8,235 nucleotides of DNA from positions 1 through 8,235 of the forward strand of contig JAFGKO010000184.1 of the NCBI GenBank assembly GCA_016928525.1. The letters are read 5' to 3'. Shown in pieces: positions 89-8,235 of the stretch. Position numbers and translations under genes: made by a program. Within the stretch, counting starts at the first letter, position 1. The number at the start of each line of letters is the position of its first letter. The notes below the pieces were generated by a model, which saw nothing but the letters and a program-made list of their open reading frames with translations, made no database searches and had not been told where the DNA came from. The DNA comes from Anaerolineales bacterium. GTDB lineage: Bacteria > Chloroflexota > Anaerolineae > Anaerolineales > Villigracilaceae.

Positions 89-559
89 CTATGATCGGCT
101 CGTTACCCCGGCTGCTTCCAGGATCTTCTGATAATCTTCTTCGGGCAACCGTCTCACCCCACCCTGGAAATGAGCGCCCCAATTATCTTTATTGGTGATA
201 AAACCCAGCTCTTCCTTGATCTCCCTCACCGGGACGCCAAGAGGCCAGGGGTCGGTTTCCGTAAGGCGCACCCCGAAGTAATGGAAGACAAACCTACCAC
301 CATGAGAATATTTTTCTTGTTCCTCGGGGCCGAGTTCATAATATTCAGAGGCCGCCGTGGCAGTCCCACAAAATACCTTTTCTTTTCCCGCCAGGTAAAA
401 CACAATCTTATCGCCTCTGGCAATCTGATACCTGTTCGGCGTGTTTTCCCCTAATCCCCAAAATTCATCCTGCATGCGCTGCTCGAAAATACAGCGCGCA
501 GAGAGTTCTTCTACTTTCGATTTCCCTTTTTGGGCGGAAAAGATCCAATGATTCATCAT
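89..559 (-). CDS. EVE-domain (PUA-like fold) protein, putative modified-base reader
   Basis: This 156-aa soluble protein is almost entirely one EVE domain. The family signs are the N-terminal HWIF (residues 4-7), RGDKIVFY (48-55) forming the core strand, GTATAAS (65-71), and the C-terminal block from F120-I-T-N-K through W127-G-A-H to GGVRRLPEEDYQKI (133-146). EVE domains belong to the PUA/YTH-like superfamily. They are known or predicted to bind modified bases in DNA or RNA, and they are often fused to or encoded beside modification-dependent restriction enzymes. No nuclease domain is attached here, so this would be a stand-alone reader. An AGGAG Shine-Dalgarno at 564-568 lies 4 nt from the first ATG and 7 nt from the second (554-556). 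The second gives the family-typical MNHWIF start and is probably the real one. The gene has its own TATAAT box about 85 bp upstream. A functional tie to the adenine methylase about 5.5 kb away is possible but unproven. Confidence 0.8.
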   Translation of the reverse strand: MMNHWIFSAQKGKSKVEELSARCIFEQRMQDEFWGLGENTPNRYQIARGDKIVFYLAGKEKVFCGTATAASEYYELGPEEQEKYSHGGRFVFHYFGVRLTETDPWPLGVPVREIKEELGFITNKDNWGAHFQGGVRRLPEEDYQKILEAAGVTSRS

Positions 560-1268: not shown

Positions 1269-2531
1269 TTATTTCTCAATAGAAACATAATAAAGCACGA
1301 CTGTATTTTCGCAGTTATTAAAATAGTTGTAATTTCCAACGATCCTGTTTATTGTGGCTTCAAGCATTACTTCTTCGCCACCGGAAATTACAATACCCAC
1401 ATCATAGGGAACTCCAGATACGATCACACAAAAATCAGTGAAGTTAAATATCCAAGGTGACCAGGGACCGCTAACAATGACTCTTCCCTTATCATCAACG
1501 TTACCCACGACCACAGATTGCCGCACCGTTCTGCCAATAATTTCTGAAGTATACTTATTAAACTGCAGTTCGGTCATCGAATTGTAATTATCATAGATTG
1601 TTTCAAGCAGAATGGGGGGAATCGGGGTTCGGGTAGGTACGAGGGTGGCAGTCGGAACAGGTGTCCGGGAGGGAGTAGGAGTTGGAGAGAGTGTTATTGT
1701 AGGCGTCAAGCTGGGTACAGGAGTTGGAACGAGAGGGATCATATCAATTGTTTGATCCAGTGTTCCGAGAGAGGAGAAGACCCAATAGTAATTGGCCGGG
1801 TCAATTAATAGCCATGATCCATCAGCATTTTTCCCATAAACAGGAAGAATATCTCCACTCACGCCTCCAGAAACAACCTTGTACTCGGTGCCCGGTCCAG
1901 AGCGAATGTTTGCACTTTGATCAAGTGTAAAGGTAGCTAAAGGCAAAGAGGTGCTCGTAGCTGTGGGAGAAGCTGTGTAAGTTGGTGTAGGCTCCAGTGT
2001 AGCAGTTGATGTATCGGTAGGAACTAGAGTTTTCGAAGGAATAGGAGTGTTGGTTGGCTTGTTGGTAAGTTTTTGAATTATATTGGGGTCTGTTAAGTAC
2101 AAGGAAAATCCAAGAAACCGGTTGAAATCATCTATTGTTGCTTCGAACTCAAGATATAAATTCCTAGGAACATCTTCGGTGGAAATGCCTTTTAGATACA
2201 CAGATCGGAAAGATTTTTGGCCGATATCCAAATAGAGTGTATCTTCATCTCCTCCTGAGACCTTGCCAATCCAATGAATTCTTGTGCCCTTGAGTCTATC
2301 AATATAAGCATCAAAATCATTATCACTTAAGGAATCGTACTGAGATTCGATCTGCTCGAAAGATAGCTCTGTATTGACTGTTAAGGTTTGAGGAATTGCT
2401 GTGGGTGATTGGGTTTTACTTGTTGATGGGGTAACTGAACTACCTGAACCGATACATGCGCAAATAGTCAACATGAGGCTGGACACAATCAGTAAAGAAG
2501 GAGTTATTTTTTTAAAGGATTTTGTGATCAT
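1269..2531 (-). CDS. Secreted lipoprotein: SH3b domain between two copies of a duplicated domain
   Basis: A 420-aa extracytoplasmic lipoprotein. MITKSFKK is followed by a hydrophobic core (9-23) and the lipobox-like I23-C-A-C26, so Cys26 is the likely acylated residue. The order after that is a Ser/Thr/Pro stalk (27-50), domain A (about 56-155), a Pro/Thr spacer (157-199), a bacterial SH3 domain (about 200-258, with SANIRSGPGTEYKVV at 206-220 and a closing YYWVFSSLG), a second Pro/Thr spacer (266-306) and domain B (about 308-418). Domains A and B share 'I-x3-Y-x-S...F-x2-Y...G' and an '[FL]EATI' strand, so they look like an internal duplication. Bacterial SH3 domains usually bind cell-wall or other surface ligands; I see no catalytic motif. 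AAGGGG (2543-2538) lies 6 nt before the ATG. Composition is AT-rich (24 of 60 G/C at 2341-2400), unlike its neighbours. It is transcribed divergently from the defence operon and is probably unrelated to it. Confidence 0.8.
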   Translation of the reverse strand: MITKSFKKITPSLLIVSSLMLTICACIGSGSSVTPSTSKTQSPTAIPQTLTVNTELSFEQIESQYDSLSDNDFDAYIDRLKGTRIHWIGKVSGGDEDTLYLDIGQKSFRSVYLKGISTEDVPRNLYLEFEATIDDFNRFLGFSLYLTDPNIIQKLTNKPTNTPIPSKTLVPTDTSTATLEPTPTYTASPTATSTSLPLATFTLDQSANIRSGPGTEYKVVSGGVSGDILPVYGKNADGSWLLIDPANYYWVFSSLGTLDQTIDMIPLVPTPVPSLTPTITLSPTPTPSRTPVPTATLVPTRTPIPPILLETIYDNYNSMTELQFNKYTSEIIGRTVRQSVVVGNVDDKGRVIVSGPWSPWIFNFTDFCVIVSGVPYDVGIVISGGEEVMLEATINRIVGNYNYFNNCENTVVLYYVSIEK

Positions 2532-2717: not shown

Positions 2718-5700
2718 ATGCCGCAAATATTTGACAATATCGAATTAGTCCTGATGCCAACATTGAAGAGTACCATAAAGCTCTCTTACCGGGCTGATTT
2801 TTGCGTGGGGTATTTCAACCTGCGGGGTTGGAAACATCTGCAAGATGAAATTGAGGCCTGGCCAGGCGGCGAAGGCAACTGTGTGCGTTTGTTGATCGGG
2901 ATGCAGCGCCCGCCCGAAGACTCTCTCAGGGAATTGGTCAGCCTGACCCCAGATAAACAGATGATAGATCTACAGACCGCCTCCCGGCTAAAAAAGCAAC
3001 TGGCAGAAGATTTGCGCACGCAGTTAACCTTTGGCGCGCCAAATAATTCTGATGAAATTGCCTTGCGCCGTTTAGCCGAACAATTACGCACGAAAAAAGT
3101 GATTGCCAGGCTCTATTTACGGCATCCTCTCCATGCAAAATTATATCTATTGTATCGTGATGATCCCATTAACCCCATCGTAGCCTATCTGGGTAGCAGC
3201 AATCTCACCTTTTCAGGGTTATCTAACCAGGGTGAACTCAACGTGGATGTCTTGGATATAGATGCAGGGAGCAAATTGTCCCGCTGGTTCGAAGACCGAT
3301 GGAATGACAATTTCTGTGTGGATATTTCCAAAGAATTGGTTCAGATTATTGATGAAAGTTGGGCCAGGGAAGACCCGCTCCCACCTTATCATATTTACCT
3401 AAAGATGGCTTACCACCTTTCCCAGGAGGCTCGTACCGGAGTCAGTGAATTCCGTATCCCCGGCGACCTGAAGAATATCCTATTTGATTTTCAAGCTGCA
3501 GCAGTGAAAATCGCTGCCCACCATATTCACAAGCGGGGCGGGGTATTGGTGGGAGATGTCGTGGGATTGGGCAAGACCCTGGTTGGCACAGCCATCTCCC
3601 GGATTTTTGACGAAGACTTAGGATATGATACGTTGATCATTTGCCCCAAAAACCTGGCGAAGATGTGGCAGAGTTACTGCGACCAATACCGGCTGCGGGC
3701 AAAGGTGCTCTCGATCAGCAAAGTATTGAATGAGTTGCCCGATCTACGTCGCTACCGGTTGGTCATCATTGATGAAAGCCACAACCTGCGCAACCGTGAA
3801 GGGCGTCGCTATAAAGCCATCCAGGAGTACATCCAGAAGAATGAAAGCAAGGTGGTTTTACTGACCGCCACGCCATACAATAAAACTTACCTGGACCTCT
3901 CCAGCCAACTGAGGCTCTTTTTACCCGACGATCAGAAATTGAGCGTGCGCCCTGAGAAACTCTTGCGAGAGATGGGCTTGATCGAGTTTATCCGCCTACA
4001 CCAGGCAGATACCCGCTCCATCGCCGCCTTTGAGAAAAGCGCTTTCGCAGAAGACTGGCAAGAATTGATGCGTCTATACATGGTACGGCGGACGCGCAGC
4101 TTTATCAAGAGCAATTACGCTGAAACAGATCTAGAGAACGGTCGCAAGTTCCTGAGCTTCCCGGATGGCAGAAGGTCTTATTTCCCCAACCGAACGCCCA
4201 GGAGGGTTAGTTTTCCTATAGATGATCAGGATCCAAACGACCAGTACGCCCGTCTTTACGCCGAGGATGTCGTTGATACCATTAATCAATTAAACCTGCC
4301 CCGTTATGGCTTGGGAAACTATGTAAAAAACACCCTGCCTCTTGCCCCCACCCCGGCTGAAAAGAAAATATTGGCGAACCTCTCCCAAGCTGGTCGCAGA
4401 TTGATGGGTTTCTCACGAACCAACCTGTTCAAACGCCTGGAGAGCAGCGGGTACGCTTTTCAACTTTCTATCGAGAGGCATATCCTGCGGAATTACGTCT
4501 TCCTATATGCCCTCCAGAATAATCTATCCCTCCCGATCGGAACTCAAGATTCATCGCTGCTAGATTCTCGTTTCAGCGACGCCGACAAAGATGCTGACCT
4601 GGGAGATGTCTATGATCCCCTGGTAGAAGTAGACGAGGAAGAACCAGAGACCGAACCCCTGGTAGATCACATATCCCGGTTATTGCGCAGTGAAGCTGCC
4701 TTTCAACAACGGGCAGCCGAGGTTTATAAGTTGTACACCACCCAATTCCGCAAACGGTTCGATTGGGTGCGTCCTGGCTTTTTTCAACAGGAACTGGCCG
4801 AACACTTGGCCGAAGATGCCTATGCGCTGCTTGAGGTTTTACGATGTTGCGGCGATTGGGATCCATTGCGGGATGCAAAACTGCACGCGCTGAGAATGTT
4901 GTTGACAGTAGAATATCCCCAACAAAAGGTGATCGTCTTCACCCAATTCGCAGACACGGTTCATTACCTGGAGGAACAATTACAGGAAATTCCCGCCTTG
5001 ATGGGGGTGACTGGTGACAGCGAAGATCCGACTGGCCTGGCTTGGAGATTCAGCCCGATGAGCAACGACAAACGCCAGGAAATTACGCCAGAAAATGAAC
5101 TGCGCGTTTTGATCGCCACCGACGTGCTCAGCGAGGGGCAGAACTTGCAAGATTGCGCCGTGGTGGTTAATTATGATCTGCCCTGGGCGATTATTCGACT
5201 GATCCAACGCGCTGGACGCGTCGATCGCATCGGCCAGCAGGCGGACCAGATTTTTTGCCACACTTTTCTGCCCGCCGAAGGCGTTGAGCGAATCATCAGG
5301 CTGCGTGACCGGGTGCGCCAGCGACTGAAAGAAAATGCCGAAGTGGTAGGGACAGACGAGGTATTTTTCGAAGACGACACCGATAACCAAGCCATCCTCA
5401 ACCTGTATAATGAAAAAGCCGGCATCCTGGATGGGGATGAAGATGAAACCGAAATAGATCTATCTTCCTACGCTTTTCAAATCTGGAAGAACGCTACAGA
5501 AGCTAATCCTGCCCTGAAGAAAACCATCCCCGACCTGCCAGATGTCTCCTTTTCCGCCCGCGCCTACCTGCCCACCCCCGAGGAACCCTGTGGGGCGCTG
5601 GTTTACTTACGCACCGGAGAAGGCAACGACGCCCTGGCCTGGATTGACCCGGCGGGGGAGAGCGTGACCGAATCGCAGTTCACCATCCTGCGGGCGGCCG

Positions 5701-6110
5701 CCTGTCCGCCGGATACGCCAGCCCTGCCGCGCAGCCCGGAACATCACGAGCTGGTGGTCCAGGGCATTCAGCATATTGCCCAGGTGGAAAGCACTATAGG
5801 AGGGCAACTGGGACGGCCATCCGGGGCTCGTTTTCGTACTTACGAACGACTGAAAAACTACGCGACCCAGGTGCGGGGCATGTTGTGGGATACCCAGGAA
5901 TTGCACCGGGCGATTGACCAGATCTACCAGCACCCCTTGCGCCAGTCCGCAGTGGATACGCTCAACCGCCAACTGCGCTCCGGGATCGCTGATGAAGACT
6001 TGGCCTCGTTGGTCGTCAGCCTCTACAACGAAGACCGATTGTGCCTGGTGAGTGAGGCGCCCCAGACCATCGAACCGCGCATCATCTGTTCATTGGGGTT
6101 GCAGGAGTGA
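2718..6110 (+). CDS. PLD-nuclease / SNF2-type helicase fusion protein (DrmD-like), restriction or defence translocase
   Basis: A complete 1130-aa cytoplasmic protein. Residues 1-215 form a phospholipase D-like domain with one HKD half-site: H139-A-K141, D148/D149 and G159-S-S-N162. A single half normally means the active site is completed by dimerisation. Residues about 250-870 form an SF2/SNF2 motor: Walker A GDVVGLGKT (279-287), DESH box (352-355), motif III LTATP (382-386), motif IV VIVFTQFADT (738-747), motif V ATDVLSEGQNLQ (800-811) and motif VI QRAGRVDRIGQ (830-840). A long helical insert (about 500-730) containing an acidic stretch (620-648) separates the two RecA lobes. Residues 880-1130 match nothing I can name. 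Such enzymes move along double-stranded DNA; the PLD head is the likely cutting part. Followed after 3 bp by a DNA methylase, it is inferred to be the restriction/translocation arm of a modification-based phage-defence system. In class 1 DISARM the SNF2 protein (DrmD) and PLD protein (DrmC) are separate. G/C rises from 27 of 60 at 2761-2820 to 42 of 60 at 5641-5700. Confidence 0.88.
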   Translation: MPQIFDNIELVLMPTLKSTIKLSYRADFCVGYFNLRGWKHLQDEIEAWPGGEGNCVRLLIGMQRPPEDSLRELVSLTPDKQMIDLQTASRLKKQLAEDLRTQLTFGAPNNSDEIALRRLAEQLRTKKVIARLYLRHPLHAKLYLLYRDDPINPIVAYLGSSNLTFSGLSNQGELNVDVLDIDAGSKLSRWFEDRWNDNFCVDISKELVQIIDESWAREDPLPPYHIYLKMAYHLSQEARTGVSEFRIPGDLKNILFDFQAAAVKIAAHHIHKRGGVLVGDVVGLGKTLVGTAISRIFDEDLGYDTLIICPKNLAKMWQSYCDQYRLRAKVLSISKVLNELPDLRRYRLVIIDESHNLRNREGRRYKAIQEYIQKNESKVVLLTATPYNKTYLDLSSQLRLFLPDDQKLSVRPEKLLREMGLIEFIRLHQADTRSIAAFEKSAFAEDWQELMRLYMVRRTRSFIKSNYAETDLENGRKFLSFPDGRRSYFPNRTPRRVSFPIDDQDPNDQYARLYAEDVVDTINQLNLPRYGLGNYVKNTLPLAPTPAEKKILANLSQAGRRLMGFSRTNLFKRLESSGYAFQLSIERHILRNYVFLYALQNNLSLPIGTQDSSLLDSRFSDADKDADLGDVYDPLVEVDEEEPETEPLVDHISRLLRSEAAFQQRAAEVYKLYTTQFRKRFDWVRPGFFQQELAEHLAEDAYALLEVLRCCGDWDPLRDAKLHALRMLLTVEYPQQKVIVFTQFADTVHYLEEQLQEIPALMGVTGDSEDPTGLAWRFSPMSNDKRQEITPENELRVLIATDVLSEGQNLQDCAVVVNYDLPWAIIRLIQRAGRVDRIGQQADQIFCHTFLPAEGVERIIRLRDRVRQRLKENAEVVGTDEVFFEDDTDNQAILNLYNEKAGILDGDEDETEIDLSSYAFQIWKNATEANPALKKTIPDLPDVSFSARAYLPTPEEPCGALVYLRTGEGNDALAWIDPAGESVTESQFTILRAAACPPDTPALPRSPEHHELVVQGIQHIAQVESTIGGQLGRPSGARFRTYERLKNYATQVRGMLWDTQELHRAIDQIYQHPLRQSAVDTLNRQLRSGIADEDLASLVVSLYNEDRLCLVSEAPQTIEPRIICSLGLQE
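6103..6107 (+). promoter_or_regulatory. Shine-Dalgarno AGGAG of the methylase, abutting the helicase stop
   Basis: AGGAG sits inside the last codons of the helicase gene, directly before its TGA (6108-6110) and 6 nt ahead of the methylase ATG at 6114. Such an arrangement usually gives translational coupling, which would keep methylase and translocase output in proportion. Confidence 0.7.
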
Positions 6111-6113
6111 GCC

Positions 6114-8235
6114 ATGCCATTCGACAAACAGCGCGCCCGCCAATATTTGCATGATTTTGATCTGACCAAACTCTTTACCGAGGAGATGGGCTGGGACCAT
6201 TCCAGCGGGAAGATCGAGATTCCCTTTGAAGATCATACCCTGGCTCTGGAAGCGGTTGCTCAAAAGCGCGGCCTGGTCGTATACTTATGCCCGCCGCTCT
6301 CCGCTGGAGACCTTCCCAATAATGCCCAACGCCGTAAGATCGAAGTCCAGGTGCGCCGACTGGTGCACGAGCATATTTTGATCTTCGTGGACGCGGCCCA
6401 TACTCGCCAGGTCTGGCAGTGGGTGCGCCGGGCGCCCAACCAGCCCATCACTGCCCGCGAATACACCTTTTATCGAGATCAGACGGGCGAGGATTTTCTC
6501 CAGCGACTCCAGGGGATGGTCTTCCATTTCGAAGATGAGGACGACTTGACCATCCTCGAAGTGGGAAACCAGGTGAGAGACACCTTCGACGTGGAGCGGG
6601 TCACCAAGCGGTTTTACGAACGCTTCAAGAGTGAACACACTGCCTTCTTACAGTTCTTGCAGGGCATCCCGGATGAGGAGCTGCAGCGCTGGTATGCCTC
6701 GGTAATGCTCAACCGCCTGATGTTTATCTATTTCATCCAGAAAAAGAGATTCCTGGATGACGATCCAGATTATCTGCGCAACCACCTCACCCAAAATCAT
6801 GGGGGGTATTATCGAGACTTCCTCTGCCCCCTGTTCTTCGAGGGCTTTGCCAGGAAAGATCGCTCTCCCGCGGCCAGGAAGCTGTTAGGGGAGGTGCCCT
6901 ATCTGAACGGCGGCATTTTCCAGCGCCACCAGGTGGAAGAGTTGTTTGGAAGAACGATCCACATCCCGGACGCGGCCTTTGAGCGCTTGTTTGACTTCTT
7001 CGACGACTATCGCTGGCATCTCGATGAGAGACCTTTAAGAGCCGACAACGAGATCAACCCCGATGTGTTGGGCTACATCTTTGAAAAGTACATCAACCAG
7101 AAACAGATGGGGGCCTATTACACCAAGGAAGATATCACCGAATACATCGCCAAGAATACGATCCTGCTCTACCTGTTGGAGAGTGTGCGCAAAGCCTGTC
7201 CAGAGTTTGACTCCTACGCCTGGAATTTACTATCTGGCGATCCTGAACGTTACATCTACCCGGCGGTGCGCCACGGCTGCGGATTGGATTTGCCCTCCGA
7301 AATCGCAGCAGGGATCGAGGCGGTGAGCCAGCGAGGTGGGTGGAACAAGAGCGCGCCCCCCGAGTACGCCCTGCCAACCGAAATCTGGCGCGAGGTGGTC
7401 GCCCGCCGCCAGCGCTATGACGAAATCCGCCAGAAGATCGAACAAGGCGAAGTTCACGAAGTCAACGACCTGATTACGTTCAACCTGGATATCCGCCAGT
7501 TCGCCCAGGATGTGCTGGAAGCCTGCCCCACAACTGATTTAATGCGAGCATTCTTCCTGACCCTGGGAAGCATCAAGATCCTGGATCCGACCGTGGGTTC
7601 GGGGGCCTTCTTGTTCGCCGCCCTCAACATCCTGGAGCCGCTCTATCAGGCCGGCCTGGGGCGCATGCAGGGGTTCTTAGATGAACTGGAAACCTCTGGA
7701 GAAAAACACCGCTCCGATAAGCTGAAAGACTTTCGCCAGATTCTGGAGCGCGTTGCCCAGCACCCGAATGAGCGCTACTTCATTTTGAAATCCATTATCG
7801 TTCATAACTTATATGGGGTGGACATCATGGAAGAGGCGGTTGAAATCTGCAAGCTTCGCCTGTTCCTCAAGCTGGCGGCGCAGGTGGAAGAAGCCAGCCG
7901 CATTGAGCCGCTGCCGGATATTGACTTCAACATCCGCGCTGGCAACACCCTGGTGGGTTTCGCCAGCCTGGAGGAAGTGGAAAAGGCTTTTAAAACCGGC
8001 GAGCAAGATGGCGTAAAGATGAACAAACTCTTCATGATGGATGAAGAAAAAAGCGCCGTGCAGCGCATCGAAGAGCGGGCTGAGGATATCGCCCGCCTGT
8101 TCAACCGTTTGCAGCAGCAGCAAACCGAGCTGGGCGGCGAGGTGACGCCCCAGGACAAGCAGGCACTGCGCCAGCGTCTAAAGCCCCTGGAGGAGGAGTT
8201 GAACCAGGCCCTGGCGCGCCAATATGGGGTGGACC
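6114..8235 (+). CDS. Eco57I/PglX-like N6-adenine DNA methyltransferase, 3' end beyond window
   Basis: This frame is open from ATG 6114 to the window end (707 codons, no stop). The visible order is: an N-terminal domain of about 320 residues of unassigned fold; GAYYTKEDI (333-341), the G-x-Y-Y-T signature of Eco57I/PglX-type methylases; an insert (about 350-480) with ALPTEIWREVVARR (421-434 region) and NDLITFNLDIRQFAQD; SAM-binding motif I DPTVGSGAFL (491-500); NLYGVDI (565-571), whose D570 should contact SAM; and the D604-F-N-I-R-A-G-N segment. A helical stretch ends at QYGVD, where the window stops. In this family the catalytic NPPY motif follows soon after, so it is probably just outside. 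The protein would methylate adenine N6, marking host DNA. Related full-length proteins are about 1000-1300 aa, so roughly a third or more is missing, including the likely target-recognition domain. No nuclease motif (PD-(D/E)XK) is apparent in the visible N-terminus, which fits a methylase relying on the preceding PLD-SNF2 protein for restriction. Confidence 0.88.
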   Translation, partial: MPFDKQRARQYLHDFDLTKLFTEEMGWDHSSGKIEIPFEDHTLALEAVAQKRGLVVYLCPPLSAGDLPNNAQRRKIEVQVRRLVHEHILIFVDAAHTRQVWQWVRRAPNQPITAREYTFYRDQTGEDFLQRLQGMVFHFEDEDDLTILEVGNQVRDTFDVERVTKRFYERFKSEHTAFLQFLQGIPDEELQRWYASVMLNRLMFIYFIQKKRFLDDDPDYLRNHLTQNHGGYYRDFLCPLFFEGFARKDRSPAARKLLGEVPYLNGGIFQRHQVEELFGRTIHIPDAAFERLFDFFDDYRWHLDERPLRADNEINPDVLGYIFEKYINQKQMGAYYTKEDITEYIAKNTILLYLLESVRKACPEFDSYAWNLLSGDPERYIYPAVRHGCGLDLPSEIAAGIEAVSQRGGWNKSAPPEYALPTEIWREVVARRQRYDEIRQKIEQGEVHEVNDLITFNLDIRQFAQDVLEACPTTDLMRAFFLTLGSIKILDPTVGSGAFLFAALNILEPLYQAGLGRMQGFLDELETSGEKHRSDKLKDFRQILERVAQHPNERYFILKSIIVHNLYGVDIMEEAVEICKLRLFLKLAAQVEEASRIEPLPDIDFNIRAGNTLVGFASLEEVEKAFKTGEQDGVKMNKLFMMDEEKSAVQRIEERAEDIARLFNRLQQQQTELGGEVTPQDKQALRQRLKPLEEELNQALARQYGVD

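Follow-up and report, generated by a model that had tools for sequence, protein, structure and literature searches.

Two adjacent genes were identified in the window analysed here, a stretch of 8,235 nucleotides from an Anaerolineales bacterium (contig JAFGKO010000184.1, assembly GCA_016928525.1). The first codes for a phospholipase D (PLD) nuclease domain fused to a SWI2/SNF2 motor, the second for an N6-adenine methylase. The pair is probably a system of ATP-dependent restriction-modification, comparable in its working to a Type ISP enzyme whose functions are divided between two subunits. The observed basis for this assignment consists of the parts, their conservation and their adjacency, together with the methylation motif of one homologue, which was identified by elimination; complex formation, translocation and two-site cleavage are predicted by analogy. 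Methylase, translocase and nuclease are encoded together, which is what the broad definition of ATP-dependent restriction-modification asks of a sequence, and the pair is apparently a widespread, unnamed variant of this kind. In the openly licensed PMC literature searched, no name or description was found for the pair or for its DprA-like gene, and no named system of the same architecture came up in the searches made. At present the parts are annotated as 'helicase-related protein' and 'DNA methyltransferase', and the best PADLOC profile of the methylase is that of a lone Type IIG enzyme. New are the split layout of PLD-SNF2 protein and methylase, and a DprA-like gene dedicated to the pair, together with a slot for cargo genes.

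The motor gene and the methylase gene

In the protein encoded by the first gene, Pfam identified PLDc_2 (residues 114-195), the N-terminal PLD domain of RE_NgoFVII (121-200), SNF2-rel_dom and Helicase_C (721-839). Only one HKD motif is present, read as LHAKLY...SSN at residues 138-162, plus E173. The motor motifs were read as GDVVGLGKT (279-287), DESHN (352-356) and TATPYN (383-388), with motif V at 801-812 and motif VI at 830-840. In an alignment of 60 motor homologues, that of the window among them, H139, K141 and E173, the Walker A lysine K286, D352 and E353 of motif II and the motif VI arginines R831 and R834 were found in 60 of 60 sequences, and N162 was found in 59, the remaining row having a gap. 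A first-pass annotation, made from the letters of the window, had described a single-HKD PLD domain and a full SNF2 motor in one polypeptide, and hence a fusion of nuclease and translocase. Domains and residues bear this out.

The PLD domain is predicted from Pfam and the conserved residues, not from the fold search. The top three Foldseek matches of the motor are RapA, no PLD protein is among the 50 rows listed, and the rows reach little beyond residues 233-923. For residues 915-1130, where fold matches hardly reach, no Pfam match was obtained. In the fold search with the methylase, no row begins before model residue 126. The partial coverage of both proteins should not be taken as a sign of a new fold.

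As the first-pass annotation had stated, the methylase gene starts 3 bp after the motor gene; the junction reads TGA, gcc, ATG. The element had been given an end at position 8235; this is the end of the contig, and the open reading frame (ORF) of the methylase, 6114-8234, is left open there. By Pfam (Eco57I, residues 564-630) the protein is an Eco57I/MmeI-like N6-adenine methylase, and its best PADLOC profile is PDLC03628 (REase_MTase_IIG, 730 bits). Motif I, DPxxGxGxF, is present in 62 of 64 aligned methylases. Motif IV is readable in relatives only, since it falls past the contig end. It reads NPPY in 54 of the 64, NPPW in 7, and NPPA, NPPR and NPPF in one each; NPPY is found in 52 of a narrower set of 56, obtained from the 64-row alignment by leaving out 5 divergent and 3 plasmid rows, which are also absent from the methylase model. 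The earlier annotation had tied its reading to NPPY in the methylase and to conserved PLD residues among homologues, and both were found (HKD in 59-60 of 60). Among the conserved residues of the first 200 positions of the 56 methylases, no intact PD-(D/E)XK was recognised, judged by pattern alone. From the parts read in the sequence, a putative role in restriction is assigned to the pair; the earlier description of a compact restriction-like pair, with a methylase that could give self-marking, is thus supported at this level.

Variation of the methylase was also observed. Methylases of 1159-1217 amino acids that are 29-31% identical to P0121 adjoin ordinary motors in loci L028, L041, L047, L050, L063, L072 and L082, and perhaps represent a further lineage of methylases that the same engine has taken up. 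A second methylase-like gene follows the first in L018 (18515-21574; best segment 53% identical to the methylase of the window) and in L068 (18110-21568; 30%), as if recognition units can be doubled.

Conservation, pairing and spread

Protein searches identified, among the matches listed, at least 119 relatives of the motor with 64-71% identity over 97-100% of its length, and at least 120 relatives of the methylase with 54-68% identity. For the genomic context, 80 loci were used, the best 80 of 221 from one scan, with 55-68% identity to the motor. The records behind them belong to Chloroflexi, Nitrospirae, Verrucomicrobia, Planctomycetes, Latescibacteria, Armatimonadetes, Deltaproteobacteria and others. 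A methylase comes after the motor in each of the 75 loci that could be read: it starts at most 2 kb on in 74 of the 80 and 2.9 kb on in L078, and the other 5 contigs end first. Since the relatives are full-length and the adjacency is conserved, the pair lies far beyond chance.

The motor is conserved, with a median identity of 63%, whereas the recognition region of the methylase is very variable (19%), and therefore the methylase should supply the specificity. Among the regions of the methylase, the divergence of the N-terminal one (residues 1-150) best tracks that of the motor.

The motor was found in 31 of 301 Chloroflexota genomes (E 1e-100), in 12 of 198 from Nitrospirota and in 3 of 299 from Pseudomonadota, each phylum sample counting one centre genome picked because it carries the motor. 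By tblastn, it was also identified on plasmids of cyanobacteria, Pelobacter and, at ~36-40% identity, actinobacteria. A phage-borne system was considered and rejected: matches were obtained in 9 of 50,697 phage records, and not one of these extends over 80% of the query.

The homologous pair of Synechocystis

On plasmid pSYSX of Synechocystis sp. PCC 6803, tblastn identified a motor homologue with 53.7% identity over the whole length. A methylase, the gene of which is presumably slr6050, lies 0.7 kb after the motor, is 49% identical to that of the window over 704 of 707 residues and contains DPTCGSGAF and NPPY. In the annotation of the entire plasmid, which gives no pseudogenes, the sole other DNA methylase is the M gene of a Type I system. 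M.Ssp6803IV and M.Ssp6803V are given as the two methylases encoded on pSYSX (excerpts of PMC6604393), and M.Ssp6803V has been assigned to the Type I genes (excerpts of PMC6560206 and PMC7296061). Since only two methylases are encoded on pSYSX and one of them is the Type I enzyme, the homologue would by elimination be M.Ssp6803IV, the motif of which, GA(m6A)GGC (m6A, N6-methyladenine), was methylated at 1446 of 1451 sites (excerpts of PMC7296061). The complement of GAAGGC contains no adenine, and therefore only one strand is marked. In the introduction of an unrelated paper, available in part, M.Ssp6803IV is counted among the methylases with crucial roles in growth (PMC12024952), which weakly fits a methylase protecting against its own nuclease. 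Soon after the Synechocystis pair (L081), an inverted set of ThiF, E2 and multiubiquitin genes was observed at pSYSX 51619-54240, a ubiquitin-like conjugation module.

Proposed mechanism

The same parts are known from the Type ISP enzymes LlaGI and LlaBIII, namely a nuclease, a double-stranded DNA motor, a gamma-class methylase and a recognition domain. These enzymes consist of one polypeptide with an Mrr-like (PD-QXK) nuclease, whereas here two genes, a PLD nuclease and an SNF2-type motor are found.

For the split system, the methylase would act as modification and specificity subunit (M+S), reading a short asymmetric site through its C-terminal target-recognition region and marking one adenine on one strand, as obtained by elimination for the Synechocystis homologue and as predicted for the window. 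The PLD-SNF2 protein, as restriction subunit (R), would dock on the methylase, probably via the N-terminal region of the latter. At unmethylated sites the motor would be fired and would then translocate double-stranded DNA, and cutting would occur when two complexes moving towards each other meet. With a single HKD, a PLD domain depends on a partner for its active site, and this agrees with two complexes colliding; by PLD chemistry and by the example of Type ISP, two single-HKD domains would pair into one active nuclease. After replication, marking of one strand leaves one daughter duplex with unmarked sites, and therefore cutting must not be set off by one such site alone; a two-site rule would thus be forced by one-strand marking. 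In about two thirds of the loci with enough sequence, the operon continues with at least one variable gene resembling abortive-infection or toxin genes and with the DprA-like gene. For the window, ~390 further methylase residues are predicted past the contig end and, with odds of about two in three, cargo genes and a DprA-like gene on the + strand.

Several points weigh against this reading. The two-site model is carried over from Type ISP, and the pair may instead be an enzyme cutting near one site, or one that blocks in a BREX-like manner without cleavage. In the literature searched, no measured restriction, translocation or subunit contact was found for any member. On pSYSX the pair is split by two small genes, one hypothetical and one VapC-like, and the link from gene to motif in Synechocystis was made by elimination. 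The divergence of the motor tracks that of the methylase core only moderately (0.46). The recognition region varies together with the methylase core (Mantel 0.55) and is more than 50% identical in 42 of 1431 pairs, so that free shuffling of this region does not hold everywhere.

Relation to named systems and alternative explanations

That the methylase is an orphan Type IIG enzyme standing beside an unrelated helicase-nuclease of the Type IV kind, such as SauUSI, appears unlikely. Its REase_MTase_IIG match would fit, and SauUSI is described as a PLD-ATPase protein able to restrict alone (excerpts of PMC12707154). However, the adjacency is constant in the readable loci, it is the motor that is conserved and the recognition region of the methylase that varies, Pfam shows no modified-base reader domain on the motor of the window, and the nuclease pattern expected of such a methylase was not recognised among its conserved N-terminal residues, by pattern only. 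It is quite unlikely that the pair is a degenerate member of the BREX-related systems built around DUF499 (BR/Hma). A weak HmaA match (74 bits) was obtained, and Type-2 BR likewise has an N-terminal HKD on its SWI2/SNF2 helicase, together with an N6-methylase, and has been proposed to be restriction-modification-like (excerpts of PMC12839542). It is the closest printed architecture, as far as the available part of this source goes, and it shares the HKD, but it comes with DUF499 and DUF3780, and membership of the pair fails on DUF499. DUF499 (PF04465) was found in 13 of 24 host genomes, nowhere nearer than 47 kb to the motor. Twenty DUF499 regions of the same genomes hold 6 SNF2 proteins by the motor profile, and the methylase profile matches no ORF there. 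These six whole proteins (1121-1214 amino acids) score 71-103 bits, compared to 2001 for the protein of the window, itself part of the model, and the PLD pattern of the window was seen in none of them. No Type-2 BR locus was recognised in the 20 regions, so that the closest case lies outside this comparison. In contrast to Type-2 BR, the core here consists of two genes, frequently accompanied by a DprA-like one, and beyond these no large partner family is widely recurrent.

It is very unlikely that the pair serves as an epigenetic regulator or as a replication or repair module instead of restriction. Methylation can influence expression, and RapA-like SNF2 motors, the top fold matches of the motor, recycle RNA polymerase. 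The conserved PLD nuclease, the variable specificity, the carriage on plasmids, the patchy spread over the three phyla and the frequent presence of abortive-infection-like genes within the same runs of genes all speak against this reading. The least probable explanation is an offshoot or member of DISARM class 1 or BREX with missing core genes lost or located elsewhere, although the first-pass annotation had called the pair DISARM-like or unclassified. The order of an SNF2 motor followed by a PglX/DrmMI-like methylase matches, weak PADLOC matches were obtained for DrmD (109 bits), BrxHI/BrxHII (86 bits) and DrmMI (49 bits), and the methylase model is nearest by Foldseek E-value to BrxX/PglX. 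MZB (PF09369), which we take to be a domain of YprA/DrmB-type proteins, was found within 15 kb of the motor in 2 of 24 host genomes with 3 matches, ~7 and ~13 kb away in G008 and ~9.5 kb away in G017; a fourth match lies at ~22 kb in G018. These count for such a relationship, yet 22 of the 24 genomes have no such match within 15 kb, and the MZB proteins are read as neighbours in defence islands. The search against DISARM and BREX profiles that had been called for earlier gave scores far below the NCBIfam cut-offs. The motor reached 119 bits for DrmD (cut-off 610), a similarity mostly to the generic helicase lobe with the best PADLOC stretch at residues 724-877, and the methylase, queried with its first 707 residues, reached 39 bits for PglX of BREX-1 (cut-off 500) and 37 for BREX-6 (cut-off 900). 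Only the motor, methylase and DprA-like families recur widely in the 80 loci. Among neighbours recurring in at least 3 of them no drmA/drmB-like family stands out, nor does a pglZ/brxC-like one among the recurrent neighbours, for which their own profiles were not used.

The pair resembles further named systems in single features. DISARM class 1 (DrmD-DrmMI-DrmA-DrmB-DrmC) shares the SNF2 motor gene with an adenine methylase and includes a PLD nuclease, whereas here PLD is fused to the motor and no DrmA or DrmB is recurrent. CamA marks asymmetric m6A sites on one strand. Such sites are also reported for BREX (excerpts of PMC12707154) and for MmeI (PMC3874165). The methylase fold of BREX PglX/BrxX, Type IIL MmeI and CamA resembles that of the window, but here a PLD-SNF2 partner supplies nuclease and motor. 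ARMADA combines a RapA/BrxHII-like SNF2 helicase with a PglX-like methylase containing NPPW, as in 7 of 64 relatives here; it is built on a YprA-like helicase, and in the available part of PMC12458937 its SNF2 helicase is not described as carrying PLD, whereas of the 24 host genomes here only 2 have MZB (YprA-type) close to the pair. HKD and SNF2 or helicase in one chain are also found in PADLOC C3a139 ('HKD+Snf2') and in the phospholipase D-like anti-phage protein NF042964 of NCBIfam. These are the best library matches of the motor, with 164 bits and 131 bits, the latter remote in view of a cut-off of 1100.

The DprA-like third gene

All-against-all clustering of 1055 filtered ORFs from the 80 loci, a tabulation of neighbours as the first-pass annotation had proposed, revealed as widespread families the motor (80 loci), the methylase (72) and a family of ~210 amino acids (33). 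The fourth-ranked neighbour family occurs in 7 loci and reads, by eye, like a LuxR-type response regulator. The ~210-residue family is a stand-alone DprA/Smf-like Rossmann protein, which several sources name DprA; its member in L010 matches PF02481 (3.8e-13), PADLOC PsyrA (3e-24) and ShosA (1.6e-5). The earlier annotation had considered that the pair might head a longer operon with drmA/drmB-like genes. In form this holds, but the content differs, consisting of a dedicated DprA-like gene and variable genes.

Of 46 loci offering 8 kb or more of sequence past the motor, 43 from genomes and 3 from plasmids, 30 contain the DprA-like gene by tblastn. In the 36 loci with a DprA-like match, the best match lies on the strand of the motor and starts 2.1-8.7 kb downstream, the shortest distance (2.1 kb) being that of a weak match on a short contig; usually the gene is located 2-12 kb downstream. 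In the 24 host genomes, 20 matches better than E 1e-19 were identified in 18 genomes, 17 of them on the same contig within ~12 kb after the motor and the other 3 at most 2 kb from the upstream contig edge. The 301 Chloroflexota genomes contain 14 matches (E 1e-15), of which 7 are on the contig of the motor within 7 kb (upstream of it in one case, G116), 6 are at most 2 kb from the upstream contig edge and 1, in G100, has no sign of the pair upstream. The 198 Nitrospirota genomes contain 15, 6 of them beside the motor, 3 beside decayed remnants and 6 at most 5 kb from the upstream contig edge. In the two phylum samples, 16 of 17 resolvable matches thus adjoin the pair or its remnants, and 12 of 29 are not resolvable. 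The remnant in L132 (5582-5847) comprises the first 41 residues of the motor and, ~20 bp on, residues 1052-1092 of the methylase, that in L133 (7997-8182) residues 1-62 of the motor only, and that in L131 (2735-3199, 8044-11351) the C-terminus of the motor and the methylase in two pieces. The Nitrospirota remnants adjoin a DprA-like gene without stops, which suggests that this gene can outlive its partners.

Genes between the methylase and the DprA-like gene

Twenty genes located between the methylase and the DprA-like gene, one per locus with the loci picked by the analyst, were scanned singly with Pfam. OLD/AAA-type ATPases were identified in 4, Schlafen/AlbA in 3, IrrE proteases in 2, DUF4238 in 2, and HNH with MTaX1, a macro domain and an IS200-type transposase in 1 each; 6 gave no match. 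A wider scan of 101 proteins (97 of 165 downstream ORFs and 4 DprA-like proteins; listed are the 25 commonest among 76 Pfam and 382 PADLOC families) added SMODS, PIN, nucleotidyltransferase and DarT among the matches listed. Many such families are known from abortive infection and toxin-antitoxin systems. In PsyrTA and ShosTA a toxin has a DprA-like partner, the profiles of which (PsyrA, ShosA) match the L010 protein, and PrrC beside EcoprrI is a suicide effector carried by a restriction locus. Here, by comparison, many different genes stand between a restriction-like pair and the DprA-like gene that comes after it. Auxiliary and backup effectors have been reported beside BREX and BR systems, so that backup effectors as such are already known (excerpts of PMC12839542); the word DprA has zero occurrences in that paper.

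The variable genes and the DprA-like gene would form a second line of defence. Tentatively, the operon can be pictured as a two-layer immune platform, a possibility to which we give less than even weight, in which a split ATP-dependent restriction core is joined by a DprA-like Rossmann sensor that restrains, and then releases, interchangeable suicide effectors. The sensor would read activity or failure of the restriction core, and the slot would hold OLD-type ATPases, Schlafen/AlbA, SMODS, PIN, DarT/macro, HNH and other proteins in exchange.

Some of the data do not fit this picture well. The 6 between-genes without a Pfam match and the 1 transposase among the 20 give no sign of such effectors. 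The DprA-like gene was not found in 16 of the 46 loci, the 3 plasmid loci among these, and in two of the 16, L018 and L020, it lies just past the fetched stretch. No DprA-like gene was found in the 299 Pseudomonadota genomes, 3 of which carry the motor, and since motor-bearing genomes occur without it, the gene is not essential. For the DprA-like match of G100 (31% identity), 12 kb of upstream sequence hold no sign of the pair.

Significance and surroundings of the pair

Seen as one system, the pair could account for some of the m6A motifs marked on one strand, which would then arise from a restriction barrier. The pSYSX pair of Synechocystis 6803, with its site known, could be a tractable model for a PLD nuclease fired by a translocase. 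The loci could further supply many natural cargo swaps for studying restriction coupled to cell suicide. If the two-layer platform is true, DprA-like proteins would be general safety catches that let one restriction engine take new warheads.

The features of the window are collected in the table.

Table. Features of the 8,235-nucleotide window and the evidence for each
Feature	Position	Strand	Evidence
EVE-domain protein	89-559	-	PF01878, 1.9e-8
SH3_3 protein, 420 amino acids, threonine-proline-rich linkers, lipoprotein-like N-terminus	1269-2531	-	
PLD (single HKD) + SWI2/SNF2 protein, putative restriction/translocase subunit	2718..6110	+	ORF of 1130 amino acids; domain matches, homologues, fold search
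PLD nuclease domain, ~residues 1-200	2718..3317	+	Pfam PLDc_2 / RE_NgoFVII and conserved residues
HxK...N of the PLD domain	3129-3203	+	Residue reading
E173 in QGELN, PLD domain	3228-3242	+	Residue reading
SWI2/SNF2 motor, ~residues 239-914	3432..5459	+	Pfam, fold matches, motifs
Motor motifs	I 3552-3578; II 3771-3785; III 3864-3881; V 5118-5153; VI 5205-5237	+	
Motor C-terminal region, residues 915-1130	5460..6107	+	Conserved across homologues
N6-adenine (gamma-class) methylase, first 707 of ~1095 amino acids	6114..8234	+	ORF open at contig end; Pfam, PADLOC, homologues
Methylase N-terminal region, residues 1-150	6114..6563	+	Conserved-residue pattern, divergence comparison
Methylase motif I, DPTVGSGAF (S-adenosylmethionine binding)	7584..7610	+	Residue reading

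Upstream of the pair and on the other strand lie the EVE-domain gene, an ORF of 127 amino acids without known family and the gene of the SH3_3 protein, the style of which is common in Chloroflexota. EVE proteins have been linked to other nuclease-SNF2 systems (excerpts of PMC7641849). As a partner of the pair the EVE gene was rejected, with no relative of the EVE, SH3 and 127-residue ORFs of the window among the 1055 ORFs of the 80 loci (E 1e-5). No RNA family was found at threshold in the window, and a promoter and terminator scan of positions 2500-2800 detected nothing. In L046 (18056-23386), a very large ORF (1777 amino acids in the locus) was observed, two genes past the methylase. The MZB match of G017 lies inside this ORF, which gives it the look of a YprA-type helicase belonging to a neighbouring system.

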